From an uncultured bacterium (GTDB lineage: Bacteria; Patescibacteriota; Minisyncoccia; Moranbacterales; UBA2206): a stretch of DNA of 44,287 nucleotides. The stretch is taken from NCBI GenBank assembly GCA_903842445.1, contig CAIMLT010000077.1, positions 1 to 44,287 of the forward strand, in the 5' to 3' direction. The number at the start of each line of letters is the position of its first letter. The first letter of the stretch is position 1. The position numbers were made by a program, and so were the translations under genes. Below the pieces are notes generated by a model. That model worked only from the letters and a program-made list of their open reading frames with translations, had not been told where the DNA came from and did no database searches. Positions 3,563 through 44,287 of the stretch are shown here, piece by piece.

Positions 3563-5013
3563 TTGGCTAGTTTTTTCTTAATTAAATTTCCCAGATAAAT
3601 ATCAAGCGGAAAAGCATAGAAATCATGTTGGAAGCGAAAGCGTGCCAAGGGTCGATAGAGCTTGGCGCCGAGCTTTATAATCCAGGAACCAGCAATTCCT
3701 TCAGGCTTATTATCAACAAAAAACGAGGCAAATTGAACGGCTTCAACGCGTTTTCGCATATTGCCTTTGAGCCAAGGAATATTGATTTGATCGACACCGT
3801 AAGTTGACCATTCGAGTAGTTTTTTGGGAGCTTGGTATCCAAGCTTTATGGCTTCATCAAAAAGATCTGTGCCAGGATAGGGCGTGAAACAACCGATGCC
3901 AGAAATTTTGGTATTGGGATTTTCTCGCAAGAGTTGCATTGCAAGATGTATTGTCATTTTTTGTTCAATTTCTGTCTCTCCTGGAAAGCCTAACATGAAA
4001 TAGAACCAGGGCGAAATATTGTAGGGTTTTAGCTTTTTATTAACGGCTATAATTTGAGCGGTGGTTATTTTTTTTTCTGTCATTTCTAAAATTCGATTGG
4101 AACCAGATTCCGCTCCGATGTTAATTTGTTGACAGTTGCTTTTTTCGAGTAGTCTCAAATAGTCATCGTCCATTGCTAAAATTGAGTCGGCTCTAGCTCC
4201 TTGAATTTCCCATTTCATGTCGAGTTCAATGAGACCCTCAATTATTTTTCTGGCTCTTTCAAGATCAATAAAAAATTCATCATCAACAAACCAGACACCC
4301 TTGATGTCAAATTTTTTTTTAAGATTTTTTATTCTGGATAGAATCAAATCTGCATCGTAAGCTCGCCAACGGCGCAGATTGAAAGCCGGGTTATAGCAAA
4401 AGCGACAGTTAAACGGACAACCACGGGAAGTCTCCATGTCTAAGGTTGGAATGTTCCCTCTTTTCGGCAAGTATTTTTGTATATCTACTAAATGATAGGG
4501 AAGGTCTGGCATCTTATTTATATTAACCGCTTCACCTCGAGGATTTTTGATTATTTTTTCAGCTTGTTTGAAAAATATTCCACCAACTTGTTCGAGGGAA
4601 GTTTTATTTTTAAGCGCTCGAGCTAGCTCTAGAACGGTTATTTCACCGTCTCCATAAACAATAATGTCGATGTATTTCTCCGCCAAGCTTTGTTCAGGCA
4701 GAACGCTGGCAAGCGGCCCACCCCAAACAACTGGAATTTTTGGGTTTATTTTTTTAACGAACCAAGACGCGTGGCAAGCGAATTTTATTTGCGGTCCAAG
4801 CATTGCTGTAGTGCCAAAAAAAAGGACATCTTCAGTTAATTCCTTTCTGATTTCTTTTCGCCAATCAGTAACAAGTCTTTGATCAATAATTTTAACTTCA
4901 AACTCTTTTGGGAGTAACTTGGCAACACTGAGCAATGACAGAGGTAGCCCGGGAGAACTTTTGATGTTATCGAGTAGTCCGACAATCGGCTGAAAGAGAA
5001 TAATTTTTTTCAT
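3559..5013 (-). CDS. B12-binding-domain radical SAM protein
   Basis: GGPLASVLPEQSL; TSRGCPFNCRFC; 4-nt overlap with the downstream gene. Confidence 0.9.
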   Translation of the reverse strand: MKKIILFQPIVGLLDNIKSSPGLPLSLLSVAKLLPKEFEVKIIDQRLVTDWRKEIRKELTEDVLFFGTTAMLGPQIKFACHASWFVKKINPKIPVVWGGPLASVLPEQSLAEKYIDIIVYGDGEITVLELARALKNKTSLEQVGGIFFKQAEKIIKNPRGEAVNINKMPDLPYHLVDIQKYLPKRGNIPTLDMETSRGCPFNCRFCYNPAFNLRRWRAYDADLILSRIKNLKKKFDIKGVWFVDDEFFIDLERARKIIEGLIELDMKWEIQGARADSILAMDDDYLRLLEKSNCQQINIGAESGSNRILEMTEKKITTAQIIAVNKKLKPYNISPWFYFMLGFPGETEIEQKMTIHLAMQLLRENPNTKISGIGCFTPYPGTDLFDEAIKLGYQAPKKLLEWSTYGVDQINIPWLKGNMRKRVEAVQFASFFVDNKPEGIAGSWIIKLGAKLYRPLARFRFQHDFYAFPLDIYLGNLIKKKLAK

Positions 5014-6477: not shown

Positions 6478-6903
6478 TTACTTTTTAGAAAAACAATACA
6501 GCATATGAGATTTTTTTGGTCCTCTCCAAAAAAATTCTAAATGAATCAGGATTGAAAAAATAATTTTTGCCAAGAAAATAGCAGCCGAACCGTAGGATTT
6601 TTTTTCACTGGCGGATAGTGGCTTGGAACCCCAAGGCGGAGAATCGACAAAGCCCTTTTCCCAGATAATGATATCTTGTTCTTTTAGTTTTGAAATCAAT
6701 TCTTTTCCAGTCAGACCTCTTTTGGAGTGGGAATAGTTGGAAACAAGATAGAGTTCTCCGGCGGGAAATGTTTTTGAGAGTTTTTTTCGCAAGTGTTCCA
6801 CGGACATAATTTCATAGATTTCTCCCAAGCCCAACACTTCCGTCTGATAGGTTTCGGTTAGACTTATTTTTTTGATTGATTTATAGGAATCCATTTCTTG
6901 CAT
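6478..6903 (-). CDS. Hypothetical protein, 141 aa
   Basis: ATG start; overlaps the 3' end of the epimerase gene by 23 nt; hydrophobic C-terminal segment AIFLAKIIFSILIHLEFFW. Confidence 0.6.
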   Translation of the reverse strand: MQEMDSYKSIKKISLTETYQTEVLGLGEIYEIMSVEHLRKKLSKTFPAGELYLVSNYSHSKRGLTGKELISKLKEQDIIIWEKGFVDSPPWGSKPLSASEKKSYGSAAIFLAKIIFSILIHLEFFWRGPKKSHMLYCFSKK

Positions 6904-7828
6904 ACCAGTCGATGGTTATTCTGATACCGTCGGCGAATTTTACTTGTGGCGTGAAATTAAATTCTGCTTGGGCTTTTTTGCCATCCAATGTCTTGGGTTT
7001 TGTCAGGATGTCAATGCGGTGATTTGTGATTAGCGGATCTTTTCGGAAAAAAAATGGTATTGGCCAAAAAAGTGTGGCCACTGATCTGGCTAGCCAAATG
7101 GGAATGTGAATTTTTGGTAACTTAACTTGCAGATTTCTGGCGATTAGTTCAGTGATTTCTTTGGTAGAAATTATTTCCGGACTGATGATTTCAAATGTTT
7201 GACCGTTTTGGGAAATAGTTGCGACTTTCAAAAAGGCGGTAATCAGATCACTGATATAGATGATGGGCATAATTTTTTCTCCTGAGCCCAGAAGAAAAAA
7301 CTTTTTTCGTTGGATCATCTGGCACAACTTAAGGAACATTGCGTTGATGTCTCCGGGGCCATAAACAATTGCCGGACGGAGAATAATTGTTTCAAAAGAT
7401 GTTTCTTTTAGCACCAGTTTTTCCGACTCGAGTTTGCTTTTGCCGTAGAGGTCATCTTGGAAATTATCGTCAGATATAGCGTTAATGCTACTGCAAAAGA
7501 TGAATTTTTTGATCCTTTGTCTGGATATTTCGAGCAGTTTTTGTGTGCCTAAGATGTTAATCTTTTGATAATCAGTTTCTTTTATGCCCAATTTTTGACC
7601 GGGAATGGCTCCTAGATGATAGACAATATCGATGTTTCTGTCAAAGACAGTCCGATAGGACTGTGGATTTTCCAGACAGCCTTCAATAGGAATAACTTTG
7701 GCATTGTCTAGTTTTTCAATTTTAATTTTATCTCTCGTGAGGACATAGACAAAATGCTCTTCTCTAATAAGGGCGCGAACTAAGTGTCTGCCGATGAATC
7801 CGGTGCCTCCAGTGACAAAAATGTTCAT
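6881..7828 (-). CDS. NAD-dependent epimerase/dehydratase (SDR)
   Basis: TGGTGFIGRHL Rossmann motif; YxxxK-like YGKSK; LRPAIVYGPGD. Confidence 0.9.
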   Translation of the reverse strand: MNIFVTGGTGFIGRHLVRALIREEHFVYVLTRDKIKIEKLDNAKVIPIEGCLENPQSYRTVFDRNIDIVYHLGAIPGQKLGIKETDYQKINILGTQKLLEISRQRIKKFIFCSSINAISDDNFQDDLYGKSKLESEKLVLKETSFETIILRPAIVYGPGDINAMFLKLCQMIQRKKFFLLGSGEKIMPIIYISDLITAFLKVATISQNGQTFEIISPEIISTKEITELIARNLQVKLPKIHIPIWLARSVATLFWPIPFFFRKDPLITNHRIDILTKPKTLDGKKAQAEFNFTPQVKFADGIRITIDWYARNGFL

Positions 7829-8901
7829 TTAATTATTAGTTTATAAGCAATCTTAATTAATGTTTTTGGATCCATTAGCATACTGGTATAGCTGGCGGAA
7901 GCTAATGGACAATAACATTCCTTATTTTTAATACTTTTTCTTAAGCTTGCGGCTTTTTTGCCAAACCAAATTTTTTGAAAGTCATAATTTTCATCTCTTA
8001 AGTTTCCCATATTCTCTCCGCGTACACAGCAACTCCAAACTTCACCTTCGGCCGAGATTTGACCGGAAGCAAAGCCGGCGTAGCAGGGGATGATTTGCGT
8101 TTTTTTGTGTAAGACTTTTTTGGTTATCTCATAATAGTTGATGCGCAGAGCGCGGGTTATTTTGGAAAATCCGTGGGCTTTTTTATGTTCCATTTTTTCC
8201 AAAAGAAAATCAATTGCCTTGGCATATTCTTTTTCATCAGGAAATATCTTCAAATCTCTATTATCCAGCTCTGTTCTTTTTTCGGCAATCTCTGTGATGT
8301 AGGAATCAGGGTGCAAATTTTTTTCTACGAATTTATATATTTCCGGAAAATTTTCAAAGTTTAACTTGGAAACGACGGAATGGACGCCGATGGTAAGGCG
8401 GGGATTTTTGATTTTTTGCAAAGCGGTATAGCTTTGCATCAAATTTTTAAAACTGCCTTCCAGATTTCTGATTTTATCGTGTTTTTCTGCCAATCCATCG
8501 AGAGAAAAATTGATCACGACTTTTGAAGTCAGGCAATTTTGCAAAATCTTTTCAACAGCGGAAGGAATAATATCAACTAAAAATCCGTTTGTTGGGATGT
8601 TGATCACTTTTGGTTTTAGATAATTATAAGCAAGTCTTGCCAGTTCAGGCAAGTCTTTGTGGGCAAAAGGTTCTCCACCGCTCAAGATGAGCCAATAGAC
8701 AGGACTCCTGATACTTTTGAAAGTCTTTTTCCATTCTACTAGCGTGAATTCATCAGTTTTTTTTTGCCAAATATTGCAAGTCCGGCATCTTGATGGGCAA
8801 TGATAAGTAACATTGAGTGTGAGATTAAGTGGCAAGCGTTTCGGCCAGCCAAAAACACGGTAGGATTTATAGAGGGGAATTTTTGGGATGAGACTGATCA
8901 T
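7825..8901 (-). CDS. Radical SAM protein with SPASM-like C-terminus
   Basis: NVTYHCPSRCRTCNIW (CxxxCxxC), LSGGEPFAHKDL; C-terminal Cys-rich region CYAG...VWSCC...CYCP. Confidence 0.88.
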   Translation of the reverse strand: MISLIPKIPLYKSYRVFGWPKRLPLNLTLNVTYHCPSRCRTCNIWQKKTDEFTLVEWKKTFKSIRSPVYWLILSGGEPFAHKDLPELARLAYNYLKPKVINIPTNGFLVDIIPSAVEKILQNCLTSKVVINFSLDGLAEKHDKIRNLEGSFKNLMQSYTALQKIKNPRLTIGVHSVVSKLNFENFPEIYKFVEKNLHPDSYITEIAEKRTELDNRDLKIFPDEKEYAKAIDFLLEKMEHKKAHGFSKITRALRINYYEITKKVLHKKTQIIPCYAGFASGQISAEGEVWSCCVRGENMGNLRDENYDFQKIWFGKKAASLRKSIKNKECYCPLASASYTSMLMDPKTLIKIAYKLIIK

Positions 8902-30378: not shown

Positions 30379-32325
30379 TTATCCTTGATTCAATCTTTTC
30401 AAATCTTCCACGCTAACGTAGTAGATGAAAATCGAAGTGCCGACTTGATAAACTGGCTTAATGTTTCTAGTCCAGCGATAACTATCCTGGTCTTTTTTTG
30501 TTTTGTCATAGATACTGCCTTGCAAAAAGTTAGTTGAGATGGCATACCAGCCAACTTCCAGCGGACGCTTTGAATCATACCACATTATATATTCGTCTTT
30601 GATGTAATATTTAATATCTGCTCCGCCAAAATAGTCAACGCGGATTTTGTCGATTGATTTTCCGGGAGTAGGGAATGGTTTGGCGATTGAATAACAATTC
30701 GAGGGGCAACCAAATTTAGAATTAGCATCGCACTTGATTTTTGCACAAGAGTTATATTCATCGATCCAAATTCGCAATCTTTTCATATCTTGTCCCCAGT
30801 CGGCATTGGAATCGGTGGCAAAATTATAGCCCTTTTTTGCTCCGCCGGCGATTGGGTTAAAATAAGACATGTAGTAGGGATAAGCAGAGATCGTTTCAAT
30901 GACAAGGAGCGACGCAAGAATAAAGGTGATTGATAGCAGGGTGATTTTTGTGGGGCGATTTTTTCTTTTTTGGCAAAAATCAATAATTACCTTGGCAGTC
31001 AGGATGTAGGCAAAAGGCAAAATCGGGAAGAGATGGCGAAACCCAATGTTGAGATTGCCAGTAATACTGATATACGCATAGAGAAAAATAAAAAATAACA
31101 TTGACAGAGTTTCAATGTTATGACGCAGATAATTGCCTAAGCTGGAAAATAGGGGCGATTTTTGCGTTGAATTTTTAAGACAGCCAATAAGAGTTTTTAG
31201 GTTATTTTGCAGGGCGATAAGAATAGCCAGGATCATTAGAAGAAGCATAGTCAGCGGTTCTTTGAAAGCGAAAACGGTTGGAAAATAGGCCGGAAAAGCC
31301 GTGCCGGAAACTTGACCCATGAAGTAGGCGCCGTTTCCTCCAGCTACACGCTTAAAGACCATTGCAATGCCGAGGAAATATTCGGAGAGTGGGCGAAATA
31401 ACGCAGTTTGGTTTAATGCTAAGAGAACTTTGCTGGTGTAGATGGTTTTAATATTAGTATCCGTTGGACTGAAATAAAAATTGATGGTTTCGGCCAATTT
31501 TTCTTTTGGCATGTCATAATTATTGAAAGCGTAAAATAGCCAAACAACCAAAAGAGAAAAAGCCAAAGCGATGATACTTTTTCCCAAATACTCTCCTAAT
31601 CTTTTTAGTTTAAAAAGAAAAACACTTTTTTCTTCATCAAGAATTCTTTTGACTAGAGGATAAATAATTGCGACAAGACCAAAAATTGGCAGGAGTAGAA
31701 TCGAAGAGAATTTTGTGAGTTGAACAACCGCCAGAAAAAAACCACCGATGGTAACATTTTTCCACGTTGGATCTTTTATAAATTTCAGAAAATAATAAAA
31801 AGAAATCATCATAAAACCAGCGATTCCAAGGTCAGTAGTAACAAAATGATTGTGGCCTAAAATATTTGGATCGAAAGCATAGAGGGTGAGAGCCAAAAGT
31901 CCGCCTAGGATTCCAGAAAGTTCCTTGCCCCATTTGAAAATAAATAAGCCGAAAAGCAAAGAAAGAAGAACGATTGGAATGCGCGCCCAGAAAATTATCT
32001 GATCGGCGTCATTACCCATTTGCCAAAAAAGATTGTGTCCGGCTTCCCATTGGCCATTCACATCAGTCGTCCAAAATTTTTGCGTGGTATCAAATTTGAG
32101 GTTCATGAAAACTAAAGGTAGAGCGGCCAGATCTTTGAGTAGTGGCGGATGCTCCGGGTTGAGGCGCATGTCATGCATCGTCAGGTAGGAGTACCCGGCC
32201 GGAATGTGGGCTGTTTCATCAAAAATAGCGCTGTCCCACCAAGCATTGAGCAAAGAAACAACGAGCATGAAGGTGAGAATGATCCCGACAAGCAGTTTGT
32301 ATTTTTTTTCAATGAATTTTTGCAT
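30379..32325 (-). CDS. GT39 (PMT-like) glycosyltransferase membrane protein
   Basis: FDETAHIPAGYSYLTMHDMRLNPEHPPLLKDLAALPL; many TM segments. Confidence 0.85.
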   Translation of the reverse strand: MQKFIEKKYKLLVGIILTFMLVVSLLNAWWDSAIFDETAHIPAGYSYLTMHDMRLNPEHPPLLKDLAALPLVFMNLKFDTTQKFWTTDVNGQWEAGHNLFWQMGNDADQIIFWARIPIVLLSLLFGLFIFKWGKELSGILGGLLALTLYAFDPNILGHNHFVTTDLGIAGFMMISFYYFLKFIKDPTWKNVTIGGFFLAVVQLTKFSSILLLPIFGLVAIIYPLVKRILDEEKSVFLFKLKRLGEYLGKSIIALAFSLLVVWLFYAFNNYDMPKEKLAETINFYFSPTDTNIKTIYTSKVLLALNQTALFRPLSEYFLGIAMVFKRVAGGNGAYFMGQVSGTAFPAYFPTVFAFKEPLTMLLLMILAILIALQNNLKTLIGCLKNSTQKSPLFSSLGNYLRHNIETLSMLFFIFLYAYISITGNLNIGFRHLFPILPFAYILTAKVIIDFCQKRKNRPTKITLLSITFILASLLVIETISAYPYYMSYFNPIAGGAKKGYNFATDSNADWGQDMKRLRIWIDEYNSCAKIKCDANSKFGCPSNCYSIAKPFPTPGKSIDKIRVDYFGGADIKYYIKDEYIMWYDSKRPLEVGWYAISTNFLQGSIYDKTKKDQDSYRWTRNIKPVYQVGTSIFIYYVSVEDLKRLNQG

Positions 32326-32492
32326 TTTTTTGTTTTTTATGATTTATGCATTTGCCAAAAAATTATTCCTAAAAGCGACTTCTCCTCATTTTAGCTAGCC
32401 CCTAGTTTATTTACCAACAGTCTTTTTCGCTAAAGATAGATAAAAGTGCGGAATAACTTTTTGGCAAACGCATAAACCTTTTGTTTTAAGAT

Positions 32493-34049
32493 TTATTCCA
32501 TTGTGTGATAGCTTAGTCCAAAAGAATCCTTGGTTTCTTTGATTTCTAGGGTTGGAAATTTGTTTTGCAGATAGGAAATCACGTCGTCATTTTTGTCCGT
32601 GAGGATGATTATGAAATCTTTGGTTTTTGGTTCAAGATATTCAATTTGTCCAGAATAAATAAATTCCAAATTTGGCATATCTTGGTTGAAAAGCATAATT
32701 GGAATTCTTTGCATATTTTCTGCTATGACAAACTTTTCTTTTTGTGGAGGGAGAGTTTTTAGATAAGTGGAAACATCCATAAGGACACTTTCGAAAGAAC
32801 GGGCAGTTTCAACTTGTGATGCCCAAAAAATGTGATATTTTATTCCATTAAACAATCCAACAAAAAGAAGTAAAAGAAGAATAAGAAATAGGGATAATTT
32901 TCGAAAGAACGTGGAATATTTTTCGCTGTATCCTAGGAAGTATTCAATTGCGATGGCGGCGAAAATAAAAGTTACCGGTAGGGTGCCAATGGCGCGAAGA
33001 GCGTGGGGCATGCCTTCTGTGGTCATGAATTCTGGGGCAAGCATTATGAAAAACCAAGAAACAAGGAATAGATAAATATCCATCTTTTCATTCCGTTCTT
33101 TCCTTAAGACTCTTTTCAAAAATAAATTAATCAGGCGTAACATCGAATAAATTAAGCCAAAAAGAAAGGCAATTCCCGAAATTACATCCAGAATTGGATA
33201 GGGCGGATAATTGTGGCGCCAGTTTTGATCACCCCAAAAATTATATTTTACCAAACTCAAAAATAGGCTACGCGAAAATTCTTGAAGCGGATGTCCGCCA
33301 TTAACTTCCGGAGAAAGCACGGAAATTGAAGCTGAACGCGACTCCAAATATTCCGGATGAAGATAAAAAGTGTAAAGCATGGGAGAAGCTGAGATCACTG
33401 TGAAAATCACAAAAACCAAAATTTGCTTCCAATAATCTTTCAAAAAACTTTTGCGAGAAAAGAGAAAACTTATGAGCATTACAACTAAGATTGCTGGGGC
33501 GATGCGAAAGGCGATGTAGGTGTGAATACCAATGCCAAAAACTAATCCGCCGATGGCAAAATCCCACCATTTCTTGGTACGAAGGCCGCGAAAGAGAAAA
33601 TAGAAAGAAAAAACCAGAACGAGCGGAAGCATATTGGCGCGAAAAGAAATGCGAGAAAAGTTAATTGCCCAAAAAGAAACAGCAACTAAATATCCAGCGA
33701 TAAGCGCGGTGCGAGTCTTTCCAAAAAGTTCTTTGGTCAGAAGATAGGTGCCAAACACTACCAGTGTTCCGCAAAGAATGGCCGGAAGTTTAAGAGACAT
33801 TACGCTTATGCCAAAAAGCGTAAAGCACATGGCGACCATATTCATAAAAAGCCCTTCGCGACCGTTGTTGGCGGTATAGAACATCTCGTATTGTCCGGAT
33901 TTGATGGCGTTGACTGCATCAATGCCATTGACCGCTTCATCGGGATAGACGCCGGGGGGAGTGTTTTCGATATTATAGAATCTCAGAAAAAAACCGAGAG
34001 CAACGATTGCTAAAAGTAAGGCAACTATCCCAATATTTTTTTTATTCAT
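32493..34049 (-). CDS. GT39 (ArnT/PMT-like) glycosyltransferase membrane protein
   Basis: PPGVYPDEAVNGIDAVNAIKSG...NNGREGLFMNMVAM; many TM segments. Confidence 0.87.
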   Translation of the reverse strand: MNKKNIGIVALLLAIVALGFFLRFYNIENTPPGVYPDEAVNGIDAVNAIKSGQYEMFYTANNGREGLFMNMVAMCFTLFGISVMSLKLPAILCGTLVVFGTYLLTKELFGKTRTALIAGYLVAVSFWAINFSRISFRANMLPLVLVFSFYFLFRGLRTKKWWDFAIGGLVFGIGIHTYIAFRIAPAILVVMLISFLFSRKSFLKDYWKQILVFVIFTVISASPMLYTFYLHPEYLESRSASISVLSPEVNGGHPLQEFSRSLFLSLVKYNFWGDQNWRHNYPPYPILDVISGIAFLFGLIYSMLRLINLFLKRVLRKERNEKMDIYLFLVSWFFIMLAPEFMTTEGMPHALRAIGTLPVTFIFAAIAIEYFLGYSEKYSTFFRKLSLFLILLLLLFVGLFNGIKYHIFWASQVETARSFESVLMDVSTYLKTLPPQKEKFVIAENMQRIPIMLFNQDMPNLEFIYSGQIEYLEPKTKDFIIILTDKNDDVISYLQNKFPTLEIKETKDSFGLSYHTME

Positions 34050-34200: not shown

Positions 34201-37116
34201 ATGGTGGATAAAAGTCAATTTGAAACAAAAACAGAAGCAGAAAAAGAGGCGGAGCGAAAAAGAGGCAAGGAGTGTCAAGATAGCATGAGTCTTTTTAGGA
34301 GTCTTTCGATGGCGTTGCATCCAGATCTGGGAAATGGCAAGAGTGATGAATTGAAAAATGAAGGGGTTGTTCTATTTATAGAGTTGATGTCTATTTATGA
34401 AAGGCATACAAAAAGCATTGCTGAAAATGTGATTTTGTGGCAGAGATTATTTGAAGAATTGAAAAATTTTGAAAATCTCAAAGTAGCTAATTATCGTGAT
34501 CGAGTTAAGAAAGACAAAGAGATCAGTGAGCTTAATAGCAAGAATGATGCATTGCTGACAGGTTTGCAAATTGATGTTAATTCAGATTATCAAAAGAATA
34601 AAAGAAATGAGTTGCGCAGAAAGATCAAAGCCTTGCGCAATAAATGCGAAAGTCTAAAAAAGGATTTGTCAGAGTTTGATGATGCGCTTCGCGAGGCGAA
34701 AGAGCTAAGTGCTGAAGTGGCTGATTTTTGCAGAGAGGTTGAAGATTGGAACAATCTTTCTCCTGATGAGAAAGAAGAGCGAAAAAAAAAATCAGCAAGA
34801 AGAAGAAAAAGGATGGGCGCAGCAAGGAAAGGAAAGACAAAGGATAAAGCCACATCTGAACAAGGAATGGATAATGACGGGGCGACAGGCGGCGGTGCTT
34901 TTCAGGTGGGCAAAGAGGATACTGGAGAAGCTAATAAGGAAAATGCCGAAAACGGTGAGGCGGAAAAAGAAAAGCCTGAGATGAGTAAATCGGAAAAGGA
35001 GATGCTGGATAAAACCGAAGAATTGAAGGTCGCAGTTGAGCAAGCAAGAAGTGGATATGCTAAGATTAATCTCGAGGTTGATGGTGCTTTCAACCGGATC
35101 AGAAGAATTTTAGGAAAAAAAATCTTTAGGAAAAAAGTTGAAGATGTTTCGGATGTCACATTGCGGTATCAAGCCTATCAAGAAAAACTCAAAGCATTGA
35201 AAGCGTTTGAGCTGCAGAAAATAAAAGATAAATATGCCGGTATCGATACTTTGTCGGAAGAGGAAAAGACGGCAAAAATCGCTGAGTTGAAAAAAGAACT
35301 CGGGGAAATGGCGACCTATTTCAACTATGATGAGAAAATCAGGCTCTTTGAAGCCAGGACTATCGCTGGAGCAGAGGCGCAAAAAAATATACCTGGCGGA
35401 AAGTTGTTGGCGAAAAGCGCTGAGTGGGTCAATCGTTATCGTAAATTAAATTGGAAATATAAACTAGCAATTTCCGGTGTGCTTTTGGCAGGTGGGGTCG
35501 GCGCTACAATGGTTGGTGCTACTAGTATTGGTCTTAGCATTGGCGCGCTAAAAATTGCACAAAGAGTCGCAGGGGGGGCAGTAGCTGGTGTTGGAACGGC
35601 GGGGTTAATGGAATCTTTGGCAAGAAAAAGTCAAAAGAAGCAAGCTGGAAAAAAGAATGAAGAAATCTTTGACGAGTTTGATGTAATAGATGAAAGAAAC
35701 GAATTTCGGGGGAATATGAATGAAAAAGCCAATTGGGAAACAAAATTTAAGACATTTGAAGATAAGTTGGATGATGAAATTAATGGTTATGCGGAAAGCC
35801 TGAAAAATGAAAGGGGTTCGGTTAATATGCGTGCGCTGGTCGGGCTAGGCGTTGGCGCTTTTGTTATTTCTGGTACTCCAGGGTATCTCTTAAAATGGGG
35901 AATCGGGATGGATAGTAGTCATGGTAATTTTCACTGGCTAAGTGATAAATTGGGAATTACTAAACCAAATATTAATGTTAGTTCTACTATTGGCAGTGGC
36001 GGGGCGAGTTCTGAAATATTGACAGAAATACCAGAAAGGCCAAGTATCCCGCCAGGAGGCTCTCCGGCAGATTTACCACCTAATTCTTCGGGGCTAAAAC
36101 TGGAGCAAACACCGGAAGCGCCGAAAAATAGTGCCATAGAAAAAGTAGTGTCTGGTTCAGTGGAAAAAACGTCAGCTGGCGTTGAGGTGAAATCGGGAAC
36201 ATTTAGTCATAATGTAGTACAAGATGATAATGTTGAAAGAATAATAATACATCAGAAGTTGGAAGAAGGTATGAGCAGGCCTGAAGCCAATAAATTAGCG
36301 CATTTAATCGCAACGAATCCTAAAAATTTGGAATCGATTGAGAAATTAAAATTGATTCACGCAGGCGACAAAGTTATTGTTGATTGGGAAAACGGCACAG
36401 TTAAAGTTGATCGTTTGTCTGGCATCAAAGGACATTCGCATAGTACTGGCGCAACTGAAATTCACAAACCAAAATTGGCCGACATAAATCCGACGGAACA
36501 TGCACCACAAGAAAAAATAATTCCAGTCAATCCGCTTGAAGCGCAATCTAATATGCCGAGCGGAGGCCAAACGCTTCGAGAGGCGGCTTTGCGAGATGAA
36601 GCGATGCAACAATCGGAAAACTCAACTAACCTCACGCCAGAAGAACAATTAAAATATCAAAAAATCGCCGGAGCAAATAGTGAGCTAATTCAAAAAAATA
36701 TCATTTCGATGCCAAAATTTGCGCAGGCATATGGAGGAGATATGTTAGAGGTGGAAAAATTGAGAATGTTAGCGCACAATGGCACGGCGGAAGCGATTGC
36801 TTATGAAAACAGCTATACGGAACTCGTTAAAAAGATGAGTCAAGCTATTTTCACTGGAAATCAGACAGGGGAGAGCTTGGATAGTTTGAAAAATGCCAAT
36901 GCAGATGATTATTGGAAAAATGATGGCAAGCTCAACCCTAAGCTTATTCAGCTAAAGGCCTATGTAGCGAGGAAATTCGGAGAGAAGATTTCTAATCCGA
37001 GAATAGACGGAATACCGCCTGAAACAGTGTCGAAATGGGCTCATCGATTGGCTTTTAAATCATTGGAAGCTGGAGGCATGAAATTGGAAAGTTTTGTGAA
37101 ATTAAAAACGCATTAA
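34201..37116 (+). CDS. Giant coiled-coil multi-TM protein with N-terminal J-domain-like HPD motif
   Basis: LFRSLSMALHPDLGNGKSDELKN; long charged helices; TM segments LAISGVLLAGGVGATMVG and LVGLGVGAFVISGTPGYLL. Confidence 0.85.
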   Translation: MVDKSQFETKTEAEKEAERKRGKECQDSMSLFRSLSMALHPDLGNGKSDELKNEGVVLFIELMSIYERHTKSIAENVILWQRLFEELKNFENLKVANYRDRVKKDKEISELNSKNDALLTGLQIDVNSDYQKNKRNELRRKIKALRNKCESLKKDLSEFDDALREAKELSAEVADFCREVEDWNNLSPDEKEERKKKSARRRKRMGAARKGKTKDKATSEQGMDNDGATGGGAFQVGKEDTGEANKENAENGEAEKEKPEMSKSEKEMLDKTEELKVAVEQARSGYAKINLEVDGAFNRIRRILGKKIFRKKVEDVSDVTLRYQAYQEKLKALKAFELQKIKDKYAGIDTLSEEEKTAKIAELKKELGEMATYFNYDEKIRLFEARTIAGAEAQKNIPGGKLLAKSAEWVNRYRKLNWKYKLAISGVLLAGGVGATMVGATSIGLSIGALKIAQRVAGGAVAGVGTAGLMESLARKSQKKQAGKKNEEIFDEFDVIDERNEFRGNMNEKANWETKFKTFEDKLDDEINGYAESLKNERGSVNMRALVGLGVGAFVISGTPGYLLKWGIGMDSSHGNFHWLSDKLGITKPNINVSSTIGSGGASSEILTEIPERPSIPPGGSPADLPPNSSGLKLEQTPEAPKNSAIEKVVSGSVEKTSAGVEVKSGTFSHNVVQDDNVERIIIHQKLEEGMSRPEANKLAHLIATNPKNLESIEKLKLIHAGDKVIVDWENGTVKVDRLSGIKGHSHSTGATEIHKPKLADINPTEHAPQEKIIPVNPLEAQSNMPSGGQTLREAALRDEAMQQSENSTNLTPEEQLKYQKIAGANSELIQKNIISMPKFAQAYGGDMLEVEKLRMLAHNGTAEAIAYENSYTELVKKMSQAIFTGNQTGESLDSLKNANADDYWKNDGKLNPKLIQLKAYVARKFGEKISNPRIDGIPPETVSKWAHRLAFKSLEAGGMKLESFVKLKTH

Positions 37117-37134
37117 ATTTATAAAATAAAAAAT

Positions 37135-37434
37135 ATGGACAATCAAGCAGAAATTCAAAAACAATTAATTGAAGAATTAGGACTTTCAAGCTTGCCAAAA
37201 GACAAGCAAGAAGAGTTGCTCATTAAGATGACCGAAGTTCTTCTTAAAAGAATATTTGTCGAAACGATGGAAAAATTGAGTGAAGCTGATCGGGAGATGT
37301 ATGAAAAAATGGTGGACGAAAAAAGTGATCCGGAAAAAATTGGAGAATTTTTGAAAGAAAATGTCTATAACTATGATGAGATGGTGCAAAAAGTAATTAT
37401 TGATTTTAAGGAAGAAATGAAAAAAGTGGAGTAA
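37135..37434 (+). CDS. DUF5663-like small acidic protein
   Basis: LIEELGLSSLPKDKQEELLIKMTEVLLKRIFVETMEKLSEAD pattern. Confidence 0.75.
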   Translation: MDNQAEIQKQLIEELGLSSLPKDKQEELLIKMTEVLLKRIFVETMEKLSEADREMYEKMVDEKSDPEKIGEFLKENVYNYDEMVQKVIIDFKEEMKKVE

Positions 37435-37458
37435 TTTTAATTAAATTAGCAAAAACTT

Positions 37459-37890
37459 ATGCTGGAACCAATTGAAGAAGGTGATTTGGATTTGAAAAAC
37501 AAGTTTCAAAGAGGCGAAGTTAAAAAGGAAGTGTCAGATTTGTCAGTTTCTGACAAAGAAATTTTACCCGCTCCGGAAACATCGGAGAGAAAAGAAGGCA
37601 GGGTGGAAAAAGATGAGGTCTATTCTAGCATTTTAGCTAAAGCGAAGAATCCATCCACGGTGATGCAGGGTGATGTTTCGGTTGATGCAAAAATTGCCAG
37701 CGATGAAGTTGACTATGAAAATAAAATAATAAAATTAGTGGAAATGGCGGAAGCGAAGGGCGTGGTGCACGCCGTGAAAGTGGCACAGCATCTCGAGGAC
37801 AATTATTTACTTGATGAATTGCACGATCGGCTGTTGGCCGTTGATTTGCATGATGCTTTGGTTAAGAAAGGAATGATATCCGAAGTATAA
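37459..37890 (+). CDS. Hypothetical protein
   Basis: 143 aa, ATG start, between tightly spaced genes on the same strand. Confidence 0.75.
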   Translation: MLEPIEEGDLDLKNKFQRGEVKKEVSDLSVSDKEILPAPETSERKEGRVEKDEVYSSILAKAKNPSTVMQGDVSVDAKIASDEVDYENKIIKLVEMAEAKGVVHAVKVAQHLEDNYLLDELHDRLLAVDLHDALVKKGMISEV

Positions 37891-37894
37891 AATT

Positions 37895-40357
37895 ATGGAT
37901 TATCCTAGTTTAATTAATTTTAGTCTTTTAATTTCTGGCGTCGCCACACTGTTGAGCGGGGCTTGGTTGGTTGTGTCCAGTTTTTTAGGCTTTCGGGCGC
38001 AAATCAATCAATCGATGAATCTTGATCTGGATGTAATCCGTGTTTCCAAAATAAACAAAAGTGAAGAGGAAAAAATTAAGGAAAATGGAGAAAGCTGGAA
38101 AGGCGAAATCGGAGCGATGGAGCAAATGCTTACAGCCTTTTCATCAATCAGAGACACGCGCAGTTTTTTAAAAAAAATGATTTATGGTTCTCCTTCGATT
38201 TCTTTGGAAATCGCCAATTCAGCCAAGAGTGAGGAAATCGTCTTTTTTATTGCTGTGCCGAGAAAATTTCGGGAAAACATTGAAAAACAAATTCACAGTT
38301 TTTTTCCTTACGCATCGCTTGAGAAAACGACTGATTTTAATATTTTTTACCCCGGAAGCAAGACAGAAGCTTCAATGATTAAACTGAAAAATGAATTTGC
38401 TCTACCAATCCGGACCTATGAAAATCAGGAGATGGATCCTTTGAATGCTATCGCCAATGCTCTCAGCAAATTAGACACGACCAATGAAGGAGCGGCGATT
38501 CAGTTAGTCTTGCGACCAGCCGGAACGACTTGGCGGGCGGAGGGGCGACGAATTGCCCATGAGATGCAACAGGGCAAGCGACTTAGCGATGTGAATAAAT
38601 CTTTTATCAGAAAGGTGGGTGGCGAGCTTGGTTCGGTGGCGCTATCTGTTATCACTCCAGCTAAAAAAGACGATCCGATTTCAAATGACAAGAAAACAGT
38701 CCAGTTGACCCCGGAAGAACAAGAGCTGGTTAAGAGTATTGAAAAAAAAGCTTCGAAGACCGGATTCGAGACAAATATTCGTCTCGTCGCCTCAGCAGCT
38801 TCAAGCGAGCGAGCGCAGGAAATTCTGGCGCATATTGAGAACGCTTTTTCTCAATATGAAAATGCCGACACGAATTGTTTTCAGGTAAGACGGGGGGATA
38901 AAAAAACAATTGCTTTTGACTTTATTTTTCGTAATTTTAAATCAGAGGAAAAAATTATTTTGGGAGTTGAGGAAATTTCCAGTATTTTTCATATTCCAAT
39001 TTCCACGACAGAAGCCCCAAAGATTAAGTGGCTAAAATCCAATGCTTCAGCGCCACCGATTGATATTCCGAAGGAAGGAATAATTTTAGGTTTCAATGAC
39101 TACCGTGGGGTGAAAACGACAGTTAGAATTTCAGATAAAGATCGCAGACGGCATCTCTATGCGATTGGACAGACCGGAACTGGAAAATCGAATTTTTTGC
39201 AAGAAATGGCCAAGCAAGACGCGCGTGAAGGTCGAGGATTCTGCTTTATTGATCCACATGGCGACGCAATTGAAGATATTCTAACCGCCATTCCCAAAGA
39301 AAGAGCAGAGGATGTTGTTGTGTTTGATCCAGCAGATGTTGAGCGTCCATTTGGTCTTAATATGCTGGAATATGATCCGGCTCATCCGGAACAGATGACT
39401 TTTGTGATTAATGAAATGATTGGGATTTTTGATCAGCTTTATGATCTAAAGGCAACTGGTGGACCGATGTTTGAACAATACATGCGTAATGCCATGTTTT
39501 TGGTTATGAGTGATCCTGATTCTGGCTCAACCCTGCTGGAAATTTCCAAGGTTCTTTCAGATGAAGAATTTCGCGCTATGAAACTTTCAAGATGCACCAA
39601 TCAAACAGTTATTGATTTTTGGACTAAGGAAGCAGAAAAGGCTGGCGGTGAAGCTGCTCTAGCTAATATGGTTCCATACATTACTTCAAAACTAACGCCA
39701 TTTATTTCGAATGATATGATGCGTCCGATTATTTCACAACAAAAAAGCACAATCAACTTTCGAGATATTATGGATAACAAGAAAATTTTGCTGATTGCTC
39801 TGTCTAAAGGAAAAATTGGTGAAATCAATGCGCGATTGCTTGGCATGGTTGTGGTAGGAAAGATTTTGATGGCAGCGCTGGGACGCACTGACACTCCAGA
39901 AGACTCGCGAGTGGATTTTCATCTCTATTTGGATGAATTTCAAAATGTTACGACCAATTCGATTGCGCAGATATTGTCTGAAGCAAGAAAATATCGTCTG
40001 TGTCTCGTTCTTGCACATCAATTTATTGCGCAACTCAAGGAAGAGATTTCCAAAGCTGTGTTTGGCAATGTTGGCTCAATGGTTTCTTTTCGAGTTGGAC
40101 CTGAAGATGGAGAATTTTTGGAAAAACAATTTGCGCCAACTTTCAAAGCGCAAGATTTGGTTAATGTGGATAATTATAACGGATTTGCTAGAATTCTTGT
40201 CAATAATGTTCTCACAAAACCATTTAATTTAATGACTTTTCCTCCAAGCGTTGGTAATCAAGAGATTGCCAATGCGATTAAGGAATTATCGCGTTTGACT
40301 TATGGCCGTGATCGTCATATCGTCAATCAGGAGATTATTGAGCGAACAAGGTTTTGA
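37895..40357 (+). CDS. VirD4/TraD-like type IV secretion coupling ATPase
   Basis: Walker A YAIGQTGTGKSNFL; FCFIDPHGDAIEDIL; Walker B-like FHLYLDEFQNV; N-terminal TM. Confidence 0.9.
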   Translation: MDYPSLINFSLLISGVATLLSGAWLVVSSFLGFRAQINQSMNLDLDVIRVSKINKSEEEKIKENGESWKGEIGAMEQMLTAFSSIRDTRSFLKKMIYGSPSISLEIANSAKSEEIVFFIAVPRKFRENIEKQIHSFFPYASLEKTTDFNIFYPGSKTEASMIKLKNEFALPIRTYENQEMDPLNAIANALSKLDTTNEGAAIQLVLRPAGTTWRAEGRRIAHEMQQGKRLSDVNKSFIRKVGGELGSVALSVITPAKKDDPISNDKKTVQLTPEEQELVKSIEKKASKTGFETNIRLVASAASSERAQEILAHIENAFSQYENADTNCFQVRRGDKKTIAFDFIFRNFKSEEKIILGVEEISSIFHIPISTTEAPKIKWLKSNASAPPIDIPKEGIILGFNDYRGVKTTVRISDKDRRRHLYAIGQTGTGKSNFLQEMAKQDAREGRGFCFIDPHGDAIEDILTAIPKERAEDVVVFDPADVERPFGLNMLEYDPAHPEQMTFVINEMIGIFDQLYDLKATGGPMFEQYMRNAMFLVMSDPDSGSTLLEISKVLSDEEFRAMKLSRCTNQTVIDFWTKEAEKAGGEAALANMVPYITSKLTPFISNDMMRPIISQQKSTINFRDIMDNKKILLIALSKGKIGEINARLLGMVVVGKILMAALGRTDTPEDSRVDFHLYLDEFQNVTTNSIAQILSEARKYRLCLVLAHQFIAQLKEEISKAVFGNVGSMVSFRVGPEDGEFLEKQFAPTFKAQDLVNVDNYNGFARILVNNVLTKPFNLMTFPPSVGNQEIANAIKELSRLTYGRDRHIVNQEIIERTRF

Positions 40358-40415
40358 GAATACTGAGGAATGTTTGCCCCGAATGTGTAGTGAGTTGTTG
40401 TGGTAAAAATAAAAA

Positions 40416-40445
40416 AAGCTCTCAGAACGGGAGTTTTTTTAGTTA
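40416..40445. terminator. Bidirectional intrinsic terminator between convergent genes
   Basis: AAAAAAAGCTCTC AGAAC GGGAGTTTTTTT. Confidence 0.6.
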
Positions 40446-40451
40446 ATTTTT

Positions 40452-42926
40452 TTAATTCATCTTAAAGCTTTTCACTCCAATTTCATTTGAAAGATAAATT
40501 AAGCCACTTTCTTCATTTATTGCAAGATCATTTGAGTTGGCAATTTCTGCATTGTAGTATTGCGCGATAATTTTTCCATCATTATCAAGTTTTAAAATTC
40601 TGGCGTTAACTTTGTCCAAAACATAGAGATTGGTTGAGTTTTGTTCAGTATATATTTTAGCAGGCGAAACTTCTGTGGCGGTATTTTCAATTGAGAATAG
40701 TTGTTTTTTTCCATTGAATAATTTTGTGATGGCTGATTCATTCAGCAGAAAAACATTTTCATTGATAGCCATGCCAATGCTATTTGTAACAACGATATTC
40801 TCTTTTAGCCAGAGTTTCTTTTCGCCAAAACCACCTTCCGCTCTGGGTAGGCGATAGATTTGATTATTGTTTGTGTCGAGTAGGTACATATAGGTGAGAT
40901 AGGTTTTGGCATCAATGATTTTTCCGTTGGCGGGAAAATTAAGCTTGGTATCTTGAAATTTTCCGGTAACAGGAGAAAAAGAGATAATCCGCTCACCTTT
41001 TATGAGAAAAATAGATTTTAAATCTCGCATAGCGATGAACAGTTCGGCATCTTGGAAATCCAAGATTATTGGAAAAGTTTTTGTGTTTTTCAGATCAATG
41101 ACATCCGTTTTTCCGAGAGCAAAGAGCTCATCATTCAGCTTGAGAATTTTTGTAACATTTCCGGTGTAAACTTCATCTAGCTTCTCAATGCGGATGACAT
41201 TCAAGTCTTTCTCGAGAGGGATTGCAATTATTGGAGTTTCTTCAATGATCTCTGGTTTTTTTGTTTCTTTATTTTCCCATTTCACAATCCAATAGGGCAC
41301 AATCAGGAGGAGCGCCAGAACAGCCAGGGCGGAAATTTTTTGCTTTTGGTTTAGACTTTTTGTGATTTGTTTCAGGTGGAAGAAGTCAGGCAGGATTTTT
41401 TTTAGTTTGACCACCCTTCCGAGATTAGTTACTTTTTGGAGAAAAGACGGAGTGGTTTTTTGCAAATCTATTTTCTGAATTGTGGGTGAATCGGCAGTGC
41501 TTTCCCATGGATAAGGCTTATAATTTAGATCAAATGCCTTGCTGTTTTTATTTTTGAAATCGTGCCATTTGTTTTTTAAGATGGTAATTGATTTAATGGC
41601 GAGGCCGGTGGGCTTTCGTAGGATCAAGACAAGTCCGTCTGTGGCTATGTCTTTTGTCCGAATAGCTCCGGTTTTTAATTTTTTCAGAAACAATGAGGCT
41701 TTTTTCTCAAGTGCCAGTTTGCGGTAGATCATTTTCAGTTTTTCAGTTTTCGGAGTTTTTATTTCCGGCGCTTTCAATGATTCGGTTTCTGTTTTTTCGG
41801 TCTCAGCTTGCTTGAAATCACTTTTAAATTTAATCTTAGCAATTTTTAGGTGGATTTTTTGCCAAAAGGAAAGAGAGAATTGATGCATTTTATTTCTTGT
41901 GCCGGCAAGAGTGCTCGCGCTTGAGAGAGTCAGGGCGGAGAGTTTTTCTTTTAGCGCGGAAAAGTCAATCGTAGGCTTTCTGAAGGAATTTTTGGTGGAA
42001 AAACTTTGTGGCTCTTTGATGTAGATATGCCCGGTTTTTTTATCGACAAAATCCTTTGGTTCTCTTTTCAATTCTTGGATTATTTCTTGCCTTTCTTTGT
42101 TTAGGGTGTCTTCCTGGATCTTTTCTTTTTCTTGCATCTTAGGGGAGAGTTCTTTTTGAAAAGCAGTTTGACTGAAGACATTCAATTCTTCTATTTTTTT
42201 GGCAGGCGATATTTCAATTATCTCTTCAAACTTCTCAGTGATGTCAATGATCAGCGTGGCGACTTCGTCTAATTCATTGATGAGTGCGGTATTCAAAAAT
42301 TGCACAAAATTTTCTTGAGAAAACTTTAGGGCGCTTTTTTTTATTTCTTCCAGAGAAAAAATATCGAAAATTTCCTTGGTAGTGAGAATGAGCTTGTCGT
42401 TTTTTTCAATTTTGCCCGAAATAACATCTTGAAAGGTTTTCAGAGGATTGGAATTGGTGCTTTCGTCCTGAATCTCAGTTATTTCTGTGAGAGTAGAATT
42501 GCGCAAAAGAAAAGCTGAGGCATTTCCGGTTTGAGAAAGCAAGAGATTATTTTTCTCGATTACGGCGCAAACGGCATTAATTTTTCCAATCCAGCCAATG
42601 TTTTCATGCGTTGCGAGTTTGGCGAGAGCCAAGTTGGCTTTATGTAGAGCGGCTTCAAAATTTTCAACCGGACCACGATTGGAGCGAGAAAAGTATTCCT
42701 TTTTAATGATAGAAATCAGATAATTGACCACATATGAGGAATCTTCACTTCGATCATCAATTTGAAAAATTCCCACCAGAATACCCAAGTTTTGGCGGGA
42801 TATGTTTTCCGGTTCTTCAACCAGCACTTCCAGAAAAGGTCGACAATCATTTCTTTTGCAAATTAAAATATCATGGAATGTTGATTCCAAGCCAAGTATC
42901 TTTTTGTCAGTTTTTTTTCTGGTCAT
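40452..42926 (-). CDS. PP2C-like N-terminal domain (degenerate), single TM, C-terminal propeller-like repeat region
   Basis: INAVCAVIEKNNLLLSQTGNASAFLLRNSTLTEITE ... KNDKLILTTKEIFDIFSLEEIK ... DEVATLIIDI; TM SALAVLALLLIVPYWIV; MTRKKTDKK start at 42926 preferred over 42971. Confidence 0.72.
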   Translation of the reverse strand: MTRKKTDKKILGLESTFHDILICKRNDCRPFLEVLVEEPENISRQNLGILVGIFQIDDRSEDSSYVVNYLISIIKKEYFSRSNRGPVENFEAALHKANLALAKLATHENIGWIGKINAVCAVIEKNNLLLSQTGNASAFLLRNSTLTEITEIQDESTNSNPLKTFQDVISGKIEKNDKLILTTKEIFDIFSLEEIKKSALKFSQENFVQFLNTALINELDEVATLIIDITEKFEEIIEISPAKKIEELNVFSQTAFQKELSPKMQEKEKIQEDTLNKERQEIIQELKREPKDFVDKKTGHIYIKEPQSFSTKNSFRKPTIDFSALKEKLSALTLSSASTLAGTRNKMHQFSLSFWQKIHLKIAKIKFKSDFKQAETEKTETESLKAPEIKTPKTEKLKMIYRKLALEKKASLFLKKLKTGAIRTKDIATDGLVLILRKPTGLAIKSITILKNKWHDFKNKNSKAFDLNYKPYPWESTADSPTIQKIDLQKTTPSFLQKVTNLGRVVKLKKILPDFFHLKQITKSLNQKQKISALAVLALLLIVPYWIVKWENKETKKPEIIEETPIIAIPLEKDLNVIRIEKLDEVYTGNVTKILKLNDELFALGKTDVIDLKNTKTFPIILDFQDAELFIAMRDLKSIFLIKGERIISFSPVTGKFQDTKLNFPANGKIIDAKTYLTYMYLLDTNNNQIYRLPRAEGGFGEKKLWLKENIVVTNSIGMAINENVFLLNESAITKLFNGKKQLFSIENTATEVSPAKIYTEQNSTNLYVLDKVNARILKLDNDGKIIAQYYNAEIANSNDLAINEESGLIYLSNEIGVKSFKMN

Positions 42927-43130
42927 ATCTAAAATAATAAGAAAAATTGCCCACTGAATATAATTTAGCATAATTTGCTAAAAAATTGAAATGGTTGGTT
43001 TTTTGGTGATTTCCGATGAGTAGCTGAAAAAAATGCGCTTGTTGCTTTTTGTATTTTATGGTAATGTATTGATAGGTTATTTTATCAGGGTATCGAAAGA
43101 AGAATTGTCGGCAGATGTCGGGCGGGTGCA

Positions 43131-43159
43131 TTGTTGTTTTTTCAAAAGAATGGTATTAT
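43131..43159 (+). promoter_or_regulatory. Promoter TTGTTG-N17-TATTAT (TGG extended -10) upstream of pilM
   Basis: -35 43131-43136; -10 43154-43159; 34 bp before the ATG at 43193. Confidence 0.55.
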
Positions 43160-43192
43160 GAATATAAAGAAAAGATAAAAATATTTTTTACA

Positions 43193-44287
43193 ATGTTTGA
43201 TTTTAAAAAAAATGTATTTCTCGGAGTTGATGTTGGAACATCTTCAATCAAAATCGTTGAAATAAAAATAGTAGATGACAAGCCGGTGCTTTCTAATTAT
43301 GTCTGGATGTCATTTCGGGATGATAACTCGGGAAAAAGGAACACTAACTCTGAATACTTTTATGCAACACTGCCAGTGTGCATAAAAAAAATGATTAAGA
43401 AAGCAAAGATTGGCGGAAAAGATGCCTATGTTTCCTTGCCTGCTTTTGGGGGATTGATAACCTTGATTGACTTTCCGGAAATGGCAATTGAGGATATGGA
43501 GCAGGCAATTAAATTCGAAGCTCATAAATATATCCCGACATCTTTGGATGACGTTGTGATTAGTTGGGATATTGTGGAAAGGAAAGGGGCTCTGAAAAAT
43601 GCAGAAGCTGGTGCTGAAAATGCGAGTAATATTTCCGAAGCAATGGTGAGAGTTCTTTTGGTTGCCGCTTCAAGGGGAAAGATTTTGAAATATGAAAATT
43701 TAGTTAAAACCGTTGGGCTGAAATTAAAGTCCGTTGATATCGAAACTTTCTCCATTATGCGCGCTCTTTTGGGAAATGATTTGGGCAGTTTTGTTATTAT
43801 TGATATCGGAGCAAGAGCTTGCAATATTATTTTGGTAGAAAATGGAATAGTCAGAATCAACAGGAACGTTGATGCCGGAGGATTTGATATGACCAAATCA
43901 ATTGCCAAAGAAATGCAAATTGATTTTGAAAGAGCGGAAAAGTTGAAAGTTTCAGGTAAAAATTTTTTTGCCCCAGATTCATCCACGAGTTTTTTCACTT
44001 TGGATGTGATAGTGGGAGAGGTGGAAAGAGTGATTAATACATATTCCAAGGAACAAGGGAAAAGCCAAATAAGCGAAGTGATTCTTTCCGGTGGAACGGC
44101 TAATATGGTTGGTTTGGCGGATTATTTTTCAGGTAGATTGAAAATGAAAACAGTCATAGGTAATCCTTTTGCGAGAATTGCTTATGATAGTAAAATGGAA
44201 AAGTTGATTTCTGAAGTGCGCTCAGGTTTTGTTGTTGCGGTTGGCTCTGCGTTGAAAGGTGTGGAGGAATATTTTAAAAAAAGAAAA
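43193..44287 (+). CDS. pilM: Type IV pilus assembly protein PilM (3' end truncated by window)
   Basis: Open from ATG 43193 to the window end; LGVDVGTSSIKIVEIK, ATPase-fold VIIDIGARACNIILVENG; not listed in the ORF track because it has no stop in the window. Confidence 0.88.
   Translation, partial: MFDFKKNVFLGVDVGTSSIKIVEIKIVDDKPVLSNYVWMSFRDDNSGKRNTNSEYFYATLPVCIKKMIKKAKIGGKDAYVSLPAFGGLITLIDFPEMAIEDMEQAIKFEAHKYIPTSLDDVVISWDIVERKGALKNAEAGAENASNISEAMVRVLLVAASRGKILKYENLVKTVGLKLKSVDIETFSIMRALLGNDLGSFVIIDIGARACNIILVENGIVRINRNVDAGGFDMTKSIAKEMQIDFERAEKLKVSGKNFFAPDSSTSFFTLDVIVGEVERVINTYSKEQGKSQISEVILSGGTANMVGLADYFSGRLKMKTVIGNPFARIAYDSKMEKLISEVRSGFVVAVGSALKGVEEYFKKRK

Follow-up and report, generated by a model that had tools for sequence, protein, structure and literature searches.

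A near-universal VirD4/TrwB-type coupling ATPase of Patescibacteria and the partner genes encoded beside it

By what means Patescibacteria exploit their bacterial hosts, and what their type IV secretion system (T4SS) carries, are questions still under study. The locus described here bears on them through a coupling-type motor encoded, with three closely spaced partners, on the chromosome of such a bacterium: what would the motor move, and with which helpers? The locus lies in a window of 44,287 nucleotides that is the entire contig C77 (CAIMLT010000077.1) of a draft genome (GCA_903842445.1; 979 kb, 97% complete, 102 contigs) whose nearest relatives are labeled Candidatus Moraniibacteriota. Translation of the window recovers, at unchanged coordinates, all six open reading frames (ORFs) that a first-pass annotation had combined into a candidate envelope or secretion locus. 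Four of them, all on the plus strand, encode a giant protein, a DUF5663 protein, a small protein that we call hyp143, and the motor, VirD4A. We read this quartet as a domesticated, relaxase-free coupling ATPase that would move a substrate over the membrane with hyp143 as a subunit, and with the giant and the DUF5663 protein as cargo (or scaffold) and chaperone; we give this reading an even chance of being right. The features of the quartet are as follows.

34201 to 37116, plus strand: giant protein, 971 residues, with coiled coil, hydrophobic segments and a conserved C-terminus; homologues of 500-2000 residues fill the same slot in most loci
36976 to 37047, plus strand: C-terminal motif of the giant, FGE...P.E[TS]...[WY]..R, from sequence comparison without a statistical test
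37135 to 37434, plus strand: DUF5663 protein (PF18908), 99 residues, helical and acidic (Pfam E=1.7e-9)
37459 to 37890, plus strand: hyp143, small ATPase accessory protein of 143 residues, without a Pfam family
37714 to 37887, plus strand: conserved C-terminal part of hyp143, L..LA..KG..HA.KVA..L.DnY.LDe.HD.L, from an alignment
37895 to 40357, plus strand: VirD4A, VirD4/TrwB-type coupling ATPase of 820 residues, by Pfam, fold and homologues
37919 to 37987, plus strand: N-terminal hydrophobic helix of VirD4A, residues 9-31, by hydropathy
38012 to 39076, plus strand: predicted VirB4-type N-terminal domain of VirD4A, residues 40-394, from an AlphaFold2 model and PDB fold matches
39167 to 39190, plus strand: Walker A of VirD4A, GQTGTGKS, nearly every position invariant in 25 homologues
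39251 to 39265, plus strand: DPHGD motif in the motor domain of VirD4A, conserved in homologues
39929 to 39943, plus strand: Walker B region of VirD4A, LDEFQ, conserved in homologues

VirD4A is a VirD4/TrwB-type coupling motor. The Pfam families TrwB_AAD_bind (E=9.7e-8) and TraG-D_C (E=1.5e-6) both match above cut-off, sequence matches in the PDB are to TrwB, DotL and HerA, and the three motifs by which the first-pass annotation had recognized a VirD4-like motor are all present and conserved. With the window protein as query, 33 of the 34 genomes in its family prove to have VirD4A, including all 26 good ones, and a profile built from 25 sequences (A2; mean column identity 61%) finds it, mostly at full length, in 330 of 333 Patescibacteria genomes across the phylum. 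It is a core, near-universal chromosomal gene of Patescibacteria. The three genes ahead of it follow one another, and VirD4A follows them, at intervals of 18, 24 and 4 bp; the four genes form an apparent operon. Because the order of the quartet recurs in dozens of genomes, it is not due to chance.

Relatives outside the phylum come from plasmids and a phage. A protein of a Bacillus subtilis plasmid (NZ_CP154917.1) aligns with VirD4A residues 90-811 and one of an Embleya plasmid (NZ_CP108778.1) with residues 151-783, at 24-28% identity and across both the N-terminal domain and the motor; each gene directly precedes a "replication-relaxation family" gene and has conjugal-transfer genes, or PrgI and ATP-binding genes, for neighbors. 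More broadly, plasmid proteins from Bacillus, Streptomyces relatives and haloarchaea, together with gp156 of phage G, align over both parts of VirD4A at 22-28% identity. The last of these belongs to a jumbo phage of Bacillus (JN638751.1, 91003-93159) and covers VirD4A residues 100-800 at 22% identity (E=9e-37). VirD4A thus shares an alignable N-terminal domain and motor with the monoderm plasmid coupling proteins (DUF87 / conjugative DNA transfer family), which are encoded in a conjugation cluster with a replication-relaxation gene, whereas VirD4A is chromosomal, has hyp143 instead, and is accompanied by no relaxase that we found. Such relatives on conjugative-type plasmids are what one would expect if the quartet were a stranded piece of an integrative conjugative element. 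Its distribution argues otherwise: the gene is retained throughout the family and the phylum with its order conserved. Two relaxase families were looked for in this genome, PF03432 and PF13814, and neither was found; among the matches listed phylum-wide no PF13814 gene adjoins a listed VirD4A site. The mobile-element explanation is largely refuted because the distribution is universal and single-locus rather than patchy, and we regard it as scarcely credible.

The architecture of VirD4A was examined by modeling. A usable AlphaFold2 model of the whole protein (pLDDT 80, pTM 0.55) finds VirB4/TrwK as its best fold match, over the whole length, followed by HerA, Cag-beta and TrwB (TMt ~0.63). When the N-terminal domain is folded alone (residues 40-394; pLDDT 82, pTM 0.82), all 14 of 14 PDB fold matches at E<=0.001 are TrwK/VirB4, with TMq 0.43-0.48. 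By sequence profile the same domain shows no relation to VirB4, and the kinship is visible by fold only. Since the N-terminal domain folds like VirB4/TrwK while the motor sequence is VirD4-type, VirD4A is predicted to join a VirB4-type N-terminal domain to a VirD4-type motor. This layout is not unique to Patescibacteria, because the plasmid and phage G proteins align over both parts. Canonical type IV coupling proteins (T4CPs) have two N-terminal helices and, to the best of our knowledge, no VirB4-type N-terminal domain. VirD4A has a single hydrophobic segment as its membrane anchor, which is wider in some homologues and absent in the inspected fusions described below. VirD4A shares its motor fold and the family TrwB_AAD_bind with TrwB/VirD4 (PDB 1e9r, 1gki) and Cag-beta (8dol), from which it would differ in that the modeled VirB4-type domain sits between the single helix and the motor. 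It shares the N-terminal fold with TrwK/VirB4 (PDB 7o43, 8rtd), the top overall match of the full model, but differs from them in its VirD4-type motor families, and the genome has a separate VirB4 on another contig, C16. The model also contains a helical insertion in the motor (about residues 499-604), which may correspond to the all-alpha domain of coupling ATPases.

The tightest partner of VirD4A is hyp143. Profile searches place it ahead of VirD4A at 76 of 80 loci; of the four exceptions, two come from contigs whose first bases already lie within VirD4A. Across the phylum its profile matches 24 of 333 genomes, and by comparison of coordinates (with G039 and G256 checked individually) every one of the 24 matches adjoins VirD4A or is fused to it, the fusions being in G256, G273 and G324. 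A hyp143-like motif also stands at the N-terminus of a VirD4A frame of 920-995 residues in three further genomes (G165, G247, G298), and the C-terminal motif of hyp143 is fused to the motor in four loci (L147, L167, L169, L178). These counts, with the recurring order of the quartet, bear out the proposal in the first-pass annotation that the motor has dedicated partners, and show a neighborhood conserved across Patescibacteria. In other classes a different gene of 120-180 residues (c5 and others) fills the same slot, so that a small accessory gene ahead of VirD4A is the rule while its family varies. The c5 family (KGEETASKI..LL...WLK.LPGVNKFFLEQEAKIKTDKI) is found directly upstream of VirD4A, in the hyp143 slot, in 10 of 40 loci (within L188-L214); homology between hyp143 and c5 was not demonstrated, with a profile-comparison probability of 0.3. 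In a search for solved structures, hyp143 and the DUF5663 protein gave PDB matches at chance level only.

The giant and the DUF5663 protein behave as a second pair, one that is dispensable; the two often recur together at other sites, in one case next to virB4. What had been called DUF5663-like is a clear member of that family, at 38.6 bits against a gathering cut-off of 23.7 for PF18908. DUF5663 occurs in 53 of the 80 loci and in 81 of 333 genomes phylum-wide, often at a distance from VirD4A. At 9 of 20 such distant sites a same-strand gene of at least 700 residues adjoins it (in one case across a 68-residue ORF); of the ORFs in a background sample, 3.3% reach that length. A distant genome (L246) carries genes for a VirB6-like protein, TrsD, VirB4, DUF5663 and a 996-residue giant consecutively, and one locus (L037) has a second giant-DUF5663 pair right after VirD4A. 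Three loci (L019, L020, L056) have lost both giant and DUF5663, leaving hyp143 directly after the upstream gene and hyp143 and VirD4A retained, and in a fourth (L015) the giant is reduced to 344 residues and DUF5663 is lost; in the genomes of these four loci (G015, G016, G019, G020) PF18908 was not found anywhere. A second DUF5663 copy in a near relative (L252 1103-5416, G029) is followed by a 1437-residue giant with a glycosyltransferase-9 domain at its C-terminal end (E=8.5e-10), and a transposase-like fragment lies upstream. DUF5663 was looked for inside the long giants and was not found there.

The giants themselves diverge fast (mean column identity 19%), and many homologues that otherwise share little retain the C-terminal motif. 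The J-like label that the first-pass annotation had given the giant does not survive, for there is no Pfam DnaJ match and HPD is absent from the homologues, and a role as J-domain co-chaperone was rejected on that ground. The giants have almost no Pfam matches at all, with LysM at best E=0.007 in 1 of 17 members, yet they carry hydrophobic segments and, in many homologues, LysM-like "V.kGDSvWk" stretches. These features would suit an envelope scaffold, in which the giant would span the membrane and grip the wall by its LysM-like repeats, while VirD4A and hyp143 would have been co-opted to build it or put it in place, without any transfer from cell to cell. The upstream neighbors, which are envelope and sugar genes (PMT, ftsQ), would fit as well. 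The LysM signal, however, goes no further than that single match, VirD4A is universal where the giant is not, and the three loci that lack both giant and DUF5663 keep VirD4A and hyp143. We consider this explanation very unlikely.

The first-pass annotation had described a motor without a relaxase or VirB4/VirB6-type genes and had asked whether the rest of the genome encodes a complete conjugative T4SS. Its statement on the relaxase holds for the two families named above; that on the channel holds for the window alone. Contig C16 (L121) encodes VirB4 (P-loop_TraG, 7e-31), PrgI/VirB3 (2.5e-12), a TrsD-like N-terminal part and a seven-helix VirB6-like protein, the last two identified from their position, their size and the number of their helices, without a Pfam match. 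The motor is therefore "lone" only within the window, and of the complete conjugative T4SS that would have refuted the first-pass proposal only half is there, namely channel genes, with neither PF03432 nor PF13814. Uncharacterized proteins of 377, 338 and 362 residues, the last with TSP3 repeats, are encoded in this cluster at 3502-4635 and 6590-8705, beside the VirB6-like and PrgI genes. Across the phylum, 316 of 333 genomes have a VirB4 match (PF19044). Of the 17 negative genomes, 13 were re-tested with the VirB4 of this genome and 11 stayed negative; in three genomes VirB4 is present and VirD4A was not detected. Replic_Relax (PF13814) is found in 34 of 333 genomes and is thus commoner than the MOBscan relaxases in a published T4SS survey (PMC12102498; 103 of ~3,035 genomes).

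In the account that follows we infer complex formation, substrate, direction and channel use. VirD4A would be a membrane-attached ATPase, probably a hexamer, that derives from the coupling proteins of monoderm and archaeal conjugative plasmids or has an ancestor in common with them. As a dedicated small subunit, hyp143 would likely be a cytosolic adaptor that presents the substrate, or would regulate or anchor the motor, and in some lineages its fusion would replace the membrane helix of VirD4A. VirD4A would select the substrate received through hyp143 and drive it over the cytoplasmic membrane, probably through the VirB4/PrgI/VirB6 channel whose genes lie on contig C16, and during contact with a host cell; protein seems to us a likelier substrate than DNA. 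In the optional pair, the giant would most likely serve as a variable cargo or as a scaffold in the envelope, and DUF5663 as its small acidic chaperone. DUF5663 may keep the giant substrate competent; alternatively, the giant may be a wall-linked scaffold at the exit.

Several observations weigh against this account. The quartet lies outside the virB4 cluster, on C77 rather than C16, and VirD4A is far from virB4 both here and in most Patescibacteria. Ten of the VirB4-negative genomes are at least 94% complete, and all carry VirD4A. The single T4CP put to a transposon screen, that of S. epibionticum, is reported in PMC12102498 to be nonessential where the channel is essential, and perhaps to be exapted. 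Finally, the pairing of giant and DUF5663 is not strict, because eight loci (L038-L044, L048) keep the giant without DUF5663. That VirD4A persists without detected VirB4 speaks against an absolute need for the channel, and is suggestive only, because a divergent VirB4 may escape detection and PF19044 matches may include VirD4 paralogues.

The genomes without detected VirB4 would also suit a different motor. VirD4A may be a DNA motor apart from the VirB4 channel, a DNA importer or chromosome-handling translocase like archaeal Ced, with its paralogue VirD4B in the same or a related job. VirD4B, on contig C27 (L112, 8406-11600), is split into a 425-residue N-terminal part, homologous to that of VirD4A (99.8% probability in profile comparison), and a 633-residue motor. 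In a tree in which VirD4A was not rooted, VirD4B copies of the relatives and of two distant genomes form a single clade (support 1.0), and since copies from near and distant genomes group in this way the duplication is old. The VirD4B genes stand divergent from dprA and topA here and in four relatives, and in two distant genomes VirD4A lies two genes from a fused VirD4B. VirD4A is close to dnaX in 20 of 40 sampled loci of other classes, some fused VirD4A forms have no membrane helix, there are weak matches to CedD/CedB, and PMC11665869, which calls the role of the T4SS unknown, mentions nucleotide uptake as a possibility. Against this, dnaX and dprA may be incidental neighbors given how compact these genomes are, and the locus in the window shows no link to dnaX; most VirD4A copies do have the membrane helix; and the giant/DUF5663 pair is left unexplained. 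Ced (PMC9905601) matches the concept of a chromosomal, domesticated conjugation-like machine, but the similarity of VirD4A to CedB/CedD is generic and spans the P-loop only. Taken together, we find a DNA motor somewhat unlikely.

Some details of these neighborhoods stand apart from that question. Upstream of VirD4B (neighbors to 16235) is a sigma-70-region-4/HARE-HTH gene, and the gene order is kept in L113, L116, L118 and L119, while L117 begins too near a contig end for dprA. In one of the two distant loci (L217 in G178, the other being L220 in G095) a sigma-4/HARE gene lies between VirD4A and VirD4B. In 19 of the 40 loci of other classes (within L187-L216) a family of ~200 residues, c2 (KIVEGVFDGQNMIGPDGK.YPVPANYASKSKLVEGD..), lies downstream of VirD4A and is usually followed by dnaX; c2 has no Pfam family.

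The domesticated-motor reading can also be put more boldly: a phylum-wide, relaxase-independent hybrid, with a VirB4-type N-terminal domain, a VirD4-type motor and an obligate small subunit, that is able to work without the VirB4 channel and is in many lineages loaded with a polymorphic giant cargo and its DUF5663 chaperone, which would set it apart, as a machine for transfer or uptake, from the essential T4SS already known in these epibionts. This version we hold to be rather unlikely.

The remaining features of the region are listed here.

40412 to 40440, plus strand: terminator-like hairpin of 12 pairs between VirD4A and the convergent gene, from a consensus scan
40452 to 42971, minus strand: convergent gene, 839 residues, with a weak PP2C-like label
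43115 to 44287, plus strand: pilM, running off the contig end (PilM_2, E=1e-39)

Hairpins of terminator type are no more frequent in the region than in shuffled sequence. The first-pass annotation had counted both flanking genes as parts of the system. The pilM gene is genuine, but just 2 of 73 loci have it near the quartet; the convergent gene accompanies the quartet in 33 of 73, among near relatives only. Both are therefore neighbors and not parts. The description of the convergent gene as a degenerate PP2C propeller has only sub-threshold matches behind it. In near relatives its mean column identity is 51%, with no convincing family, and one homologue has a sub-threshold SpoIIE match. On the other side, two PMT_2 glycosyltransferase genes (30379-34049) are divergent from the quartet, a position kept in about half of the loci.

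VirD4 homologues in Patescibacteria have already been published, and the motor itself is not new: PMC12102498 counts 5,713 homologues in 2,918 genomes (about two each), only 148 of them near virB4, with relaxases in 103 genomes. In another study (PMC10633639) the T4SS proved essential, and its cluster held no coupling protein that could be recognized. The survey and our analysis share the phylum, the motor class and a VirD4 that is apart from virB4 and without a relaxase. The parts of the survey that were read and searched by term name no VirD4 partners, neither DUF5663, nor a small upstream subunit, nor a fusion, and contain neither a VirB4-type N-terminal domain nor a division of VirD4 into paralogues A and B. 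We found no mention of DUF5663 in the literature searched, a set without most subscription papers, and within the searchable literature the partner set (hyp143, its fusion, giant/DUF5663) appears to be undescribed.

A motor present in ~99% of the sampled genomes, some of them without detected VirB4, must matter outside the laboratory, in contrast to the available transposon result, which calls the T4CP dispensable. For the question of how Patescibacteria live off their hosts, hyp143 (or its local equivalent) and the giant/DUF5663 candidate cargo-chaperone pair provide concrete proteins for experiments.

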